DNA from: Streptomyces sp. B3I8
GTDB taxonomy: Bacteria; Actinomycetota; Actinomycetes; Streptomycetales; Streptomycetaceae
Direction of reading: 5' to 3'
DNA length: 64,000 nt
NCBI RefSeq assembly: GCF_030816915.1
Contig: NZ_JAUSYN010000002.1
Coordinates: 3,175,501-3,239,500, forward strand
Position 1 is the first letter of the stretch, and each line of letters begins with the position of its first letter. The notes under the pieces are model-generated. The model did no database searches. It was given only the letters and a program-made list of their open reading frames with translations, and was not told the DNA's origin. Below are positions 13,317 to 16,951 of this stretch, piece by piece. Position numbers and translations under genes: made by a program.

Positions 13317-14642
13317 TCACCCCGTCGCGTCCTCCCGCATCGCCGTCCGCTGGAGCTGCCCCAGGACCCCCGCCGAGCTGCCCTCCTCCGACACCGCCGT
13401 CCCGATCTGCTTCTTGAGCTCCGCGCTCACCGTCGCCCACGACGTCTTGCCCACCGGATACAGCTCCGCCCCGGCGAGCTGCTCCAGGAACGGCGCGAGG
13501 TCGGCGTCCTTCGGGGAGGAGGCCATGTCCGCGGAGGCGGACGTCGTCGCCGGCAGCAGGTCGTACTCGCGCGAGAACGCCAGTACGTTCTTCTTGCTGT
13601 AGACGAAGTCGAGGAAGTCCCCGACCTGCTCGCGGTGGCCGGGCTGCCGGAAGGCCATCATCCAGTCGGCGACGCCCATCGACGGCCGGTCCCGGCCGTC
13701 CGCGCCCTCGTCGCCGTTCCCGCTCCCGCTCCCGCTCCCGCTGCCGTTCACGGGCATCGGCACCATGCCGAAGTCCAGGCCCTTGGCCCGTGCCGTCTTC
13801 ATCAGCGTGGGATGCCCGTTGAGCATCCCGACCTCGCCGCGCGCGAACGCGGCGAACGCGTCCGCGCGGTTCAGCTTCGCGGGCGGGACGGGTCCGGTGA
13901 GGCCCTTGCCGACGAGTTCGTCCTTCAACCAGGAGAACGTCGCGACGTTCTCCACCGAGTCCAGGTCGTAGTCGCCGATGCTGTCGGTGTAGTCGCCCCC
14001 GCCGCTGAGCAGCCACTGCAGGGTCTCGGCCTGCGCCTCCTCCGGTCCCAGCGGCAGCGCGTACGGCGTGCTGACCCCGGCCGTCCTCAACGCGTGCGCG
14101 TCGGCGGCCAGTTGGTTCCAGGTCTCGGGCGGCCGGCTGATCCCGGCCTTGGCGAACAGCTTCTTGTTGTAGAACAGCAGCCGGGTGGAGGCCGCGAACG
14201 GCATGCCGTACTGCACCCGGTCCACCTCGCCCGCCCTGCTCAGTTCCGGCACGAAGTCGGCCTGGACAGGAATGGAGAGCAGGTCGGAGACGCGGTAGAG
14301 CTTGCCGGCGGCCGCGTAGTCGGCGTAGGCGCCGATCTGCGCCAGGTCGGGGGCGTCGCCCCGGTCGACCATCTGCTTGACCTTGCTGTCCACGTCGTTC
14401 CACGAGTAGACGCTGACGTCGACCTTCACGCCGGGGTGCTCGTCCTCGTACGCGCCGGCCAGCTCGTCCCAGTACTTCTTCGACGAGTTGGCCGCCGAGT
14501 CGCCGTAGTCGGCGGCGACCAGTTTCAGGGTCACGTCCCCGGAGCCGCCCGGACCCCCGCAGCCGGCGAGGGTCGCCGTCATCCCCAGTGCGGTGATCGC
14601 CGCGCCCAGTACCGTCATTCTCCGCGCCCCGCGCCGCCGCAC
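13317..14642 (-). CDS. ABC sugar-binding lipoprotein
   Basis: A 441-residue extracellular solute-binding protein of the carbohydrate (family 1) type. A basic signal sequence ends in the lipobox 'LAGC' at about residues 24-27, so it is a membrane-anchored lipoprotein. The motif 'LLFYNKKLFAKAGI' is typical of sugar binders. An odd Gly-Ser run (about residues 300-310) inside the C-terminal lobe is encoded by a six-base repeat. No permease genes adjoin it. It is divergent from nagK across DasR-type operators, so amino-sugar uptake is a reasonable guess; MsiK could be its ATPase (inference). Confidence 0.9.
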   Translation of the reverse strand: MRRRGARRMTVLGAAITALGMTATLAGCGGPGGSGDVTLKLVAADYGDSAANSSKKYWDELAGAYEDEHPGVKVDVSVYSWNDVDSKVKQMVDRGDAPDLAQIGAYADYAAAGKLYRVSDLLSIPVQADFVPELSRAGEVDRVQYGMPFAASTRLLFYNKKLFAKAGISRPPETWNQLAADAHALRTAGVSTPYALPLGPEEAQAETLQWLLSGGGDYTDSIGDYDLDSVENVATFSWLKDELVGKGLTGPVPPAKLNRADAFAAFARGEVGMLNGHPTLMKTARAKGLDFGMVPMPVNGSGSGSGSGNGDEGADGRDRPSMGVADWMMAFRQPGHREQVGDFLDFVYSKKNVLAFSREYDLLPATTSASADMASSPKDADLAPFLEQLAGAELYPVGKTSWATVSAELKKQIGTAVSEEGSSAGVLGQLQRTAMREDATG

Positions 14643-14709
14643 CGATCCACTCCTGTTTTCGCTGGTTGTACGTGGTTACCGTCTCGTATACCGAAACGGC
14701 CCGGTCATA

Positions 14710-14741
14710 AGGTCTACACCACCACAGTGGACTAGACCTCT
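14710..14741. promoter_or_regulatory. Two DasR (dre)-like operators between the lipoprotein gene and nagK
   Basis: AGGTCTACACCA at 14710-14721 and TGGACTAGACCT at 14728-14739 each match the dre core TGGTCTAGACCA at 10 of 12 positions. Their starts are 18 bp apart. DasR is the GlcNAc-responsive GntR repressor of amino-sugar genes, and nagK-nagA is a known target in S. coelicolor (established knowledge). The sites sit in the divergent promoter, so they could control both the lipoprotein gene and nagKA. Confidence 0.75.
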
Positions 14742-14761
14742 CCGGGTCGGAGCGTCACACT

Positions 14762-14775
14762 GTTCCACGTGAAAC
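14762..14775 (-). other. parS: parS site (ParB binding), perfect match
   Basis: On the minus strand this reads GTTTCACGTGGAAC, the main Streptomyces parS sequence as I know it. ParB loads at such sites near oriC to organise chromosome segregation during sporulation. It overlaps the GTG start of nagK (14769-14771), so the first codons are constrained by the site. No other copy was noticed in the window. Confidence 0.85.
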
Positions 14776-15773
14776 ACGTCCTCGCCCTCGATGTGGGCGG
14801 CACCGGTATGAAGGCCGCCCTGGTAGGGGTGGAAGGCGAGTTGCTCCACCGCGCACGTCGGCCCACCGGCCGCGAACGGGGCCCCGAGGCGGTGACGGCG
14901 GCGGTCCTCGACTTCGCCGCCGAACTGCGCGCCCACGGCCTCGCCGAGTTCGGCGAACCGGCCGCCGCGGCCGGTGTCGCCGTCCCCGGCATCGTCGACG
15001 ACGACCGGGGCGTGGCCGTCTACTCGGCCAACCTGGGCTGGCGCGACGTACCGTTGCGCGCCCTCCTGAGCGAACGGCTCGGCGGCGCCCCCGTCGCCCT
15101 CGGCCACGACGTGCGCACCGGCGGCCTCGCCGAAGGCCGCATCGGCGCCGGCCGGGGTGCCGACCGCTTCCTGTTCGTGCCGCTGGGCACCGGCATCGCG
15201 GGCGCCATCGGCATCGACGGCCGGGTCGAGGCGGGCGCGCACGGTTTCGCCGGCGAGATCGGCCATGTCGTCGTACGCCCCGGCGGCGTCGACTGTCCCT
15301 GCGGGCAGCGCGGTTGTCTGGAGCGGTACGCCTCCGCCGCCGCCGTCGGCCAGGCCTGGGCCACCGCCTGCGGCGACCCGGAGGCGGACGCGGCGGACTG
15401 CGCCCGGGCCGTGGCCGCCGGGGACGCACGGGCGGCGGAGGTCTGGCAGGGGGCCGTCGACGCGCTCGCCGACGGTCTGGTCACCGCCTTCACCCTCCTC
15501 GACCCGCGCACCCTGATCATCGGTGGCGGGCTCGCGGAGGCCGGACCCACGCTGTTCGACCCGCTGCGCGAGGCGCTGCGCGCCCGGGTCACCTTCCAGA
15601 AGCTGCCGACCGTCGTGCCCGCCGGCCTCGGCGACAACGCCGGCTGTCTGGGCGCGGGCCTACTCGCCTGGGACCTGCACGCCACCGGCGCGCGTCCCCC
15701 CGCGGACCCCGGCCCCGCCCCCCTCGTTCCCCCCGTCCGCGACACCACTGACTCCTCGGAGGTAACCACCTGA
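14769..15773 (+). CDS. nagK: ROK-family N-acetylglucosamine kinase NagK
   Basis: Phosphorylates GlcNAc (possibly glucose) with ATP in the cytosol. This 334-residue ROK kinase shows the ATP-binding 'LDVGGTGMKAAL' at residues 6-17, 'GTGIAGAIGIDG' near 140 and the zinc motif CxCGxxGCxE as 'CPCGQRGCLE' near 178. The GTG start lies inside a perfect parS site and 28 bp after a dre-like operator. The TGA overlaps the nagA ATG by one base, so nagK and nagA are translationally coupled. A glucokinase role is the main alternative; the nagA neighbour and dre sites favour GlcNAc. Confidence 0.88.
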   Translation: MKHVLALDVGGTGMKAALVGVEGELLHRARRPTGRERGPEAVTAAVLDFAAELRAHGLAEFGEPAAAAGVAVPGIVDDDRGVAVYSANLGWRDVPLRALLSERLGGAPVALGHDVRTGGLAEGRIGAGRGADRFLFVPLGTGIAGAIGIDGRVEAGAHGFAGEIGHVVVRPGGVDCPCGQRGCLERYASAAAVGQAWATACGDPEADAADCARAVAAGDARAAEVWQGAVDALADGLVTAFTLLDPRTLIIGGGLAEAGPTLFDPLREALRARVTFQKLPTVVPAGLGDNAGCLGAGLLAWDLHATGARPPADPGPAPLVPPVRDTTDSSEVTT

Positions 15774-16951
15774 TGGCCCCAAGCAAGGTTCTCGTCGGTG
15801 CCCGGACGGTGCTCCCCACCGGGATCGTGGACGACGGCCGCGTGGTCGTCGAAGGCGCCCGCATCACAGCCGCCACCGGCGACGGAACCCGTTCCCCGCA
15901 CTCCCCCGCCGAGCCCGGCACAGACACCGTCGACCTCTCCGGTCACTGGCTGGTCCCCGGCTTCGTCGACCTGCACAACCACGGCGGCGGCGGAGCCTCC
16001 TTCACCTCCGGCTCCGTCGAGGACGTACTGACCGGCATCCGCACCCACCGGGAGCACGGCACCACCACCCTCGTCGCCTCTACCGTCACCGAGGAGACGG
16101 ACCAGCTCGTCCAGCGCGCCGGGCTGCTGTCCGAACTGGCCGAGCAGGGCGACCTGGCCGGCATCCACTTCGAGGGCCCCTTCATCTCCCCCTGCCGCAA
16201 GGGCGCGCACTCCGCCGCCCTGCTGCGCGACCCCGACCCGGCCGAGGTGCGCAAACTGGTCGACGCGGCCCGCGGGCAGGCCCGCATGGTCACCCTCGCC
16301 ACCGAACTCCCCGGCGGCCTGGACTCCGTGCGGCTGCTCGTCGAGCAGGGCGTGATCGCCGCGGTCGGCCACACGGACGCCACCTACGAGCAGACCGTCG
16401 CCGCCATCGACGCGGGCGCGACCGTGGCCACCCACCTCTTCAACGCGATGCCCACCCTCGGCCACCGCGCCCCCGGACCGGTCACCGCGCTGCTGGAGGA
16501 CGAGCGGGTCACCGTCGAGCTCATCAACGACGGCACCCATCTGCACCCTGCCGCCCTGAAGCTGGCGTTCCGGCACGCGGGCGCCGCCCGGGTCGCGTTC
16601 ATCACCGACGCCATGGACGCGGCCGGCTTCGGCGACGGCCGCTATCTGCTCGGCCCGCTGGAAGTCGAGGTCAGCGACGGCGTGGCCCGACTGGTGGAGG
16701 GCGGCTCGATCGCGGGGTCCACCCTCACCCTGGACCGGGCGTTCCAGCGGGCGGTCACGGTCGACGGGCTCCCGGTCGAGGACGTCGTCGCCGCCCTCTC
16801 GGCCAACCCCGCACGGCTGCTGGGCAAGGCCGACGAGGTGGGCTCACTGACCCCTGGCACCTATGCCGACCTGGTCGTTCTCGACGAGGAGTTCGCACTG
16901 AAGGGCGTGATGCGTCGGGGCGAGTGGGTGATCGATCCCCAACTGGGCTGA
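15773..16951 (+). CDS. nagA: N-acetylglucosamine-6-phosphate deacetylase NagA
   Basis: Deacetylates GlcNAc-6-phosphate to glucosamine-6-phosphate, the step after NagK. The 392-residue length is normal for this amidohydrolase. Visible motifs are 'DLHNHGGGG' (metal-binding HxH region near residue 64), 'HFEGPF', 'VGHTDATY', 'THLFNAM' and the catalytic Asp in 'FITDAMDAAG'. GGAGG precedes the ATG at good spacing within nagK. Confidence 0.95.
   Translation: MAPSKVLVGARTVLPTGIVDDGRVVVEGARITAATGDGTRSPHSPAEPGTDTVDLSGHWLVPGFVDLHNHGGGGASFTSGSVEDVLTGIRTHREHGTTTLVASTVTEETDQLVQRAGLLSELAEQGDLAGIHFEGPFISPCRKGAHSAALLRDPDPAEVRKLVDAARGQARMVTLATELPGGLDSVRLLVEQGVIAAVGHTDATYEQTVAAIDAGATVATHLFNAMPTLGHRAPGPVTALLEDERVTVELINDGTHLHPAALKLAFRHAGAARVAFITDAMDAAGFGDGRYLLGPLEVEVSDGVARLVEGGSIAGSTLTLDRAFQRAVTVDGLPVEDVVAALSANPARLLGKADEVGSLTPGTYADLVVLDEEFALKGVMRRGEWVIDPQLG

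Follow-up and report, generated by a model that had tools for sequence, protein, structure and literature searches.

The window, 64,000 nucleotides of the Streptomyces sp. B3I8 genome (C2:3,175,501-3,239,500 of a 7.98 Mb assembly in two contigs), contains a predicted amino-sugar operon whose start region carries a candidate ParB-binding site. The first gene, nagK (14769..15773, plus strand), encodes a 334-residue ROK-family kinase (Pfam ROK, 3.8e-59, from residue 5) and its stop codon overlaps the ATG of nagA by one base (TGATG). The product of nagA (15773..16951, plus strand) is an N-acetylglucosamine-6-phosphate deacetylase, with a TIGR00221 score of 265.7 bits against a cut-off of 225.65. 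None of the NCBIfam kinase models passed its cut-off on the nagK product, so the name of the kinase rests on its operon with nagA and on the DasR boxes. The divergent gene (13317..14642, minus strand) encodes a sugar-binding ABC-transporter protein (Pfam SBP_bac_1, 8.5e-34). Two DasR boxes (dre) precede nagK: AGTGGACTAGACCTCT (14726..14741, plus strand), the reverse complement of agaggtctagtccact, and TAAGGTCTACACCACC (14708..14723, plus strand), the reverse complement of ggtggtgtagacctta. Both agaggtctagtccact and ggtggtgtagacctta are listed as dre of S. coelicolor nagKA in PMC4398421; going by that listing, the boxes of the two operons are identical and the parS described below is added on their downstream side. 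In the relative S. coelicoflavus (L016) nagK carries no parS. The distances given for the S. coelicolor boxes, -83 and -101 (PMC4398421), would place the annotated start in that species near an in-frame ATG at codon 14 (14808 here). The GTG at 14769 is the likelier nagK start, since initiation at this ATG would remove the N-terminal DVGGT of the ROK kinase.

The 14-mer and the predicted nagK promoter

The candidate site is a 16-mer, TGTTCCACGTGAAACA in plus-strand letters (14761..14776), around a 14-mer core (14762-14775) that reads GTTTCACGTGGAAC on the minus strand from 14775 to 14762. The GTG start of nagK (14769-14771) lies inside the 14-mer, as the preliminary description had proposed: the open frame that fits the kinase begins at this codon and the ROK match starts at residue 5. 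The same description had called the site a perfect parS. Its coordinates and letters are exact, but the 16-mer is one base off the standard palindrome of this genome and genus, GTTTCACGTGAAAC; measured as a 16-bp palindrome close to TGTTTCACGTGAAACA, it likewise shows one mismatch. The variant is nevertheless a credible parS, because all three one-mismatch sites of the genome share the same change and two of them sit in the oriC-side cluster, the third being nagK, and because the 16-mer equals the B. subtilis consensus parS (PMC7614844). It is also identical to the site within the B. subtilis parB gene (PMC4333373), although these sites belong to another phylum and occupy another position. Leaving nagK aside, the same single change recurs in 7 of 10 one-mismatch sites in four genomes (G000, G171, G380 and G223). 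By its letters, then, we regard the nagK 14-mer as a parS of good quality. The exact string GTTTCACGTGGAAC also occurs in a paper on an archaeal protein (PMC11381335).

The site lies across what is probably the transcription start of a leaderless promoter. A putative -10 element, CACACT (14756..14761, plus strand), directly precedes the 14-mer, and 17 nt upstream of it a putative -35, TAGACC (14733..14738, plus strand), was placed by spacing and falls inside the DasR box. A simple sigma-70 scan of 14600-14850 returned no promoter match, so we infer the leaderless promoter rather than recognize it, together with the overlap of parS with its predicted -7 to +7. Conservation of spacing suggests that the nagK transcript begins at the GTG. 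In 125 of 130 nagK loci the triplet ACT precedes the homologous GTG by 6 or 7 nt, and the other five (9, 10 or 16 nt) have an extra upstream GTG at 6-7 nt from ACT; counting either GTG, the 6-7 nt spacing holds in all 130 loci, even in loci with an extended N-terminus. Seventeen of the 130 have another in-frame ATG or GTG near the stretch from the -10 to the GTG or upstream of it, mostly beyond the putative -10. Very short leaders are reported for 264 mRNAs of S. coelicolor (<10 nt; PMC4681348). Some clades show inverted-repeat arms at this place (GTCTC/GAGAC, GTTTC/GAAAC); a conserved repeat bound by another protein was set aside because the 6-nt spacing present in 37 of 130 loci breaks the symmetry.

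Place among the parS sites of the genome

Where does the nagK site stand among the parS sites of this genome? Allowing one mismatch to GTTTCACGTGAAAC, we found 24 sites genome-wide, 21 of them perfect and three with an identical single change, against none for the reversed pattern used as a control in the same genome; with up to two mismatches the figures are 26 and 2. All 24 sites span a single 437-kb stretch around dnaA (C2:3,190,262-3,627,312), and outside this stretch no further site at one mismatch or fewer is present in the genome. The nagK site is the outermost of the 24, the next one being 156 kb nearer dnaA; the DnaA domain match (C2:3,542,036) is about 352 kb away from nagK. The parAB side of dnaA, on which nagK is located, holds 22 of the 24 sites, in line with the side bias reported across 20 closed genomes, for which a mean of 22.8 parS sites is given (PMC8743542). 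In S. coelicolor 23 central parS sites and one near a chromosome end have been described (PMC4852455). ParA and ParB are encoded a few kb from dnaA (L156), the ParB with N-terminal, HTH and C-terminal domains. An outlying parS was one of the readings offered at the outset, with the distance to oriC as a check, and the position and letters of the site agree with it: by sequence, the nagK site is an outlying parS. It resembles the ParB-bound chromosomal parS sites of S. coelicolor and S. venezuelae in sequence, and outliers are known there, as is clustering at oriC with a side bias like that of the present set. The difference is its position on a predicted promoter and a start codon, 156 kb outside the rest.

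A similar arrangement is found in two other genomes, G171 and G380, where no parS-like site lies farther out than the one at nagK and the next is 130 and 163 kb off, respectively. In contrast to the nagK site, whose position few relatives share, the gaps between the dnaA-nearest sites are alike (355, 2826 and 2273 bp in G000, the genome of the window; 285, 2867 and 2213 bp in G171). In a frame-by-frame look some other parS sites seem to lie inside coding frames. A perfect-palindrome parS at G000:C2:3,597,378 lies over the putative opening codons of a predicted TrkA-N ion-channel gene (3597376-3598485, L158); the idea that nagK is the sole gene start under a parS was rejected on this account.

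Distribution and history of the site in Streptomyces

We compared the homologous place in the 80 closest relatives of NagK that named genomes encode. The exact 14-mer was present in one (L024, Streptomyces sp. SM1) and one other (L051) was within one mismatch of the palindrome, while 57 of the 80 were four or five mismatches from parS; GTTCCCCGTGAAAC is the version of relatives at this place. A scan of 392 genomes of the genus by a pattern running from the DasR box to the start gave 356 readable loci, all matching GTG-NRN-CAY-GTC-NTC-GC behind the DasR box, and 36 unreadable ones, in which additional copies may be hidden. The 14-mer occupies nagK in eight of the 392, all exactly GTTCCACGTGAAAC (G000, G223, G142, G160, G334, G380, G147 and G171), and is missing from the 348 other readable genomes. 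All eight copies share GTTCCAC, and GTTTCAC occurs in none. These counts required the core CACGTG and so leave out seven genomes with GTTTCCCGTGAAAC, a word one mismatch from the palindrome whose core is broken; a looser count that accepts every 14-mer differing from the palindrome by at most one letter adds these seven and reaches 15 of 392. Since the parS clusters of G171 and of G380 each contain one copy of GTTTCCCGTGAAAC, ParB may bind weakly at nagK starts that carry it. The perfect palindrome GTTTCACGTGAAAC stands at none of the readable nagK starts. An A two bases before the GTG is present in 21 of the 392 genomes: eight with GTTCCACGTGAAAC, seven with GTTCCATGTGAAAC and six others without parS.

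The site is therefore not conserved across the genus but lineage-specific, and its distribution gives no sign of a function kept for long throughout the genus. The proposal that the 14-mer reflects a constraint on nagK translation gains no support from these counts (8 of 392 genomes) or from the spacing, which suggests a leaderless mRNA and hence places the upstream half of parS outside the RNA. For the same reason a conserved RNA element was rejected: the predicted mRNA begins at the GTG, and the upstream half varies between loci, both in its letters and, by a single base, in how long it is. Two features of the start itself may be mentioned here. AGA, a rare arginine codon in Streptomyces, is the second nagK codon in most rows among the matches listed and is strongly conserved at the DNA level. 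GTGAAACAY begins nagK in 69 of the 392 genomes, and in about 25 of these rows (G039, G046, G071 and others) the start is duplicated as GTGAAACCCGTGAAAC or nearly so, which adds three codons and keeps the 6-7 nt from ACT to the first GTG.

How did the site come to be so scattered? In a FastTree phylogeny of nagKA from 130 loci, computed with the first 15 bases left out, the nine parS rows are dispersed and imply at least seven changes; an IQ-TREE of 44 rows again gives at least seven. An AU test on these 44 rows, in which the group was defined by the 14-mer and the remaining 35 rows were chosen with knowledge of the first tree, rejects a single parS clade (p-AU 1.9e-5), and with it the possibility of one ancestral parS kept in one clade. 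Because the nagK start context of the genus is already near parS, the right null is drift from that context, and we simulated it along the tree, one column at a time, for those 68 of 109 loci that have 7-nt spacing. The 109 comprise the 80 named relatives and the 29 best-scoring relatives (47 of the 392 genomes being unscored), exclude the window's own genome and 20 additionally fetched loci, and include a few rows that are identical between the two collections and that swell the tip count rather than the count of changes. Five parS tips were observed against 0.36 expected by drift (P 0.0015), and the four observed changes were reached by drift with P 0.0031; a further run of the simulation on this set gave similar values. 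Without the sister genome the figures are four tips against 0.30 (P 0.0034) and, for changes, P 0.0083; the whole collection of 130 loci, a biased set with 88 loci at 7-nt spacing, gives 0.006 and 0.009. Among 11 haplotypes seen at least twice only parS falls below 0.01 on both tips and changes, and the control haplotype GTCCCTCGTGGAAC reaches P 0.0074 on tips and 0.06 on changes. The signal is modest: parS at nagK is commoner than independent drift predicts. It appears to have arisen several times, apparently separately, from a start context already close to parS. The preliminary description had named a 14-mer not conserved beyond coding constraint as grounds for refutation. As far as vertical conservation goes the data agree with that condition, and the excess of apparently separate gains stands against it.

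Comparison of neighbouring rows adds some detail. Four of the 14 letters separate L101 from its sister row L103, and four separate L129 from L034, with a presumed direction of change. Two sister pairs keep all letters, for which drift has a probability of 0.07 and 0.09 (0.03 and 0.05 if the estimate omits the parS tips, 0.13 and 0.16 if it draws on all 130 loci), and a third pair (L130, L131) encloses a row that lacks the site; retention of the 14-mer in sister pairs is suggestive at best. L132, inside the G171 group, is without the core though 93 of the 95 surrounding nucleotides equal those of L130. Between L130 and L132 (G171 and G116) the two differing letters in 95 nt make or break the parS core.

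Possible roles of ParB at nagKA

What are the implications of a parS at this position? Our preferred reading, to which we give a fair balance of probability in its favour, is that the 14-mer serves as an outlying site for ParB loading and sits where the nagKA promoter starts transcription. The confinement of the word to the dnaA region, with no control sites, was counted for this reading; the absence of the site from most readable relatives (8 of 356 have it), the empty sigma-70 scan and the additional in-frame ATG or GTG of 17 loci were counted against it. ParB most likely binds the nagK site and can hinder RNA polymerase at nagKA. ParB would load at this parS in vivo and slide outward for a few kb, covering the promoter of nagKA together with its two DasR boxes. 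In S. venezuelae ParB is reported to spread as far as 2.5-3 kb from parS (PMC12511625), a range which would include the nagKA promoter if ParB loads at nagK. The ParB dimer on parS would cover about -7 to +7 and compete with RNA polymerase for the DNA, because the promoter appears to be leaderless and its -10 lies immediately before the site, whereas DasR would act on the -35. The simplest effect would be a direct collision of ParB with RNA polymerase where transcription begins. With abundant ParB, for example in sporogenic hyphae, nagKA would be expressed less. There is a partial precedent: in P. aeruginosa ParB at parS3 and parS4 is reported to repress the adjacent promoters (PMC5521831; PMC7022226). 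On the other side, according to a review, the loss of ParB in several bacteria alters few genes near parS (PMC7022226). As described, parS3 and parS4 lie next to promoters (those of PA0011 and PA0013), as the nagK site would if its predicted promoter is real; they are near oriC and intergenic, whereas the nagK site covers a predicted transcription start.

An alternative, to which we allot roughly one chance in a few, is coincidence: the start context drifts near parS genus-wide and sometimes matches it, so that ParB may touch the DNA while nothing depends on it. The four or five mismatches that separate most named relatives from parS, the sporadic occurrence of the site and the absence of the core from L132 beside an almost identical L130 speak for this explanation, and the absence of GTTTCACGTGAAAC from every readable nagK start, though only one base away from GTTTCCCGTGAAAC, would be odd if affinity for ParB were selected. 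Against it stands the excess of parS tips and changes over drift, which persists without the sister genome. Moreover, at 7-nt spacing all 15 rows with A at -2, roughly seven origins by lineage, also have GTT and AAA. A second alternative, that some lineages recruited ParB to shut nagKA during sporogenic segregation and so tied amino-sugar metabolism, and with it DasR signalling, to chromosome segregation, draws on this same over-representation, on the seven or more changes found in both trees, on the rejection of one clade, on the four-letter differences of L101 and L129 from their sister rows and on the two pairs that keep every letter. We nonetheless hold it to be doubtful, less probable than coincidence: the P values are modest and come from a simple per-column model and from data that overlap in part, a row lacking the site falls within the third pair, and a control haplotype also scores on tips.

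Two further explanations appear improbable. Selection may have acted on the promoter or the leaderless start, that is, on the initial transcribed letters and the second codon, and happened to spell parS. The strong conservation of the start letters in the 356 readable genomes and of the ACT-GTG spacing speaks for such selection, which leaves unexplained, however, why A at -2 is accompanied by the distant ParB-site letters T3 and A12; we think it has a small chance of being right. Slightly smaller still is the chance that one allele spread between species by homologous recombination. The uniform GTTCCAC of all eight genus copies would fit a common source, but the spacers just upstream follow the recipient's own lineage (L101/L103; L130/L132), so that the tracts would have to be very short, about 25 nt.

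Set against these alternatives, an outlying ParB-loading site on a predicted promoter start, present in a minority of lineages, agrees best with the sequence data, and there are hints of selection that fall short of proof. Selection may have tied amino-sugar metabolism to segregation, though this is unproven. Among the openly licensed papers searched none combines parS, nagK and Streptomyces, and among the matches listed there for ParB, parS and N-acetylglucosamine no title or abstract start concerns Streptomyces. Where natural parS sites lie away from the origin cluster, and on promoters, they reveal how ParB affects expression apart from segregation, and the nagK locus offers a natural comparison of close Streptomyces relatives with and without the 14-mer. 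As L130 and L132 differ by two letters in 95, the effect of a single parS on a metabolic operon is directly testable. It is conceivable, though we rate it as improbable, that ParB is a recurrently recruited repressor of nagKA and that several lineages independently made a leaderless start into a parS. If this were true, ParB engaged in sporogenic segregation would block the GlcNAc kinase and the deacetylase and would thereby feed back on DasR signalling.
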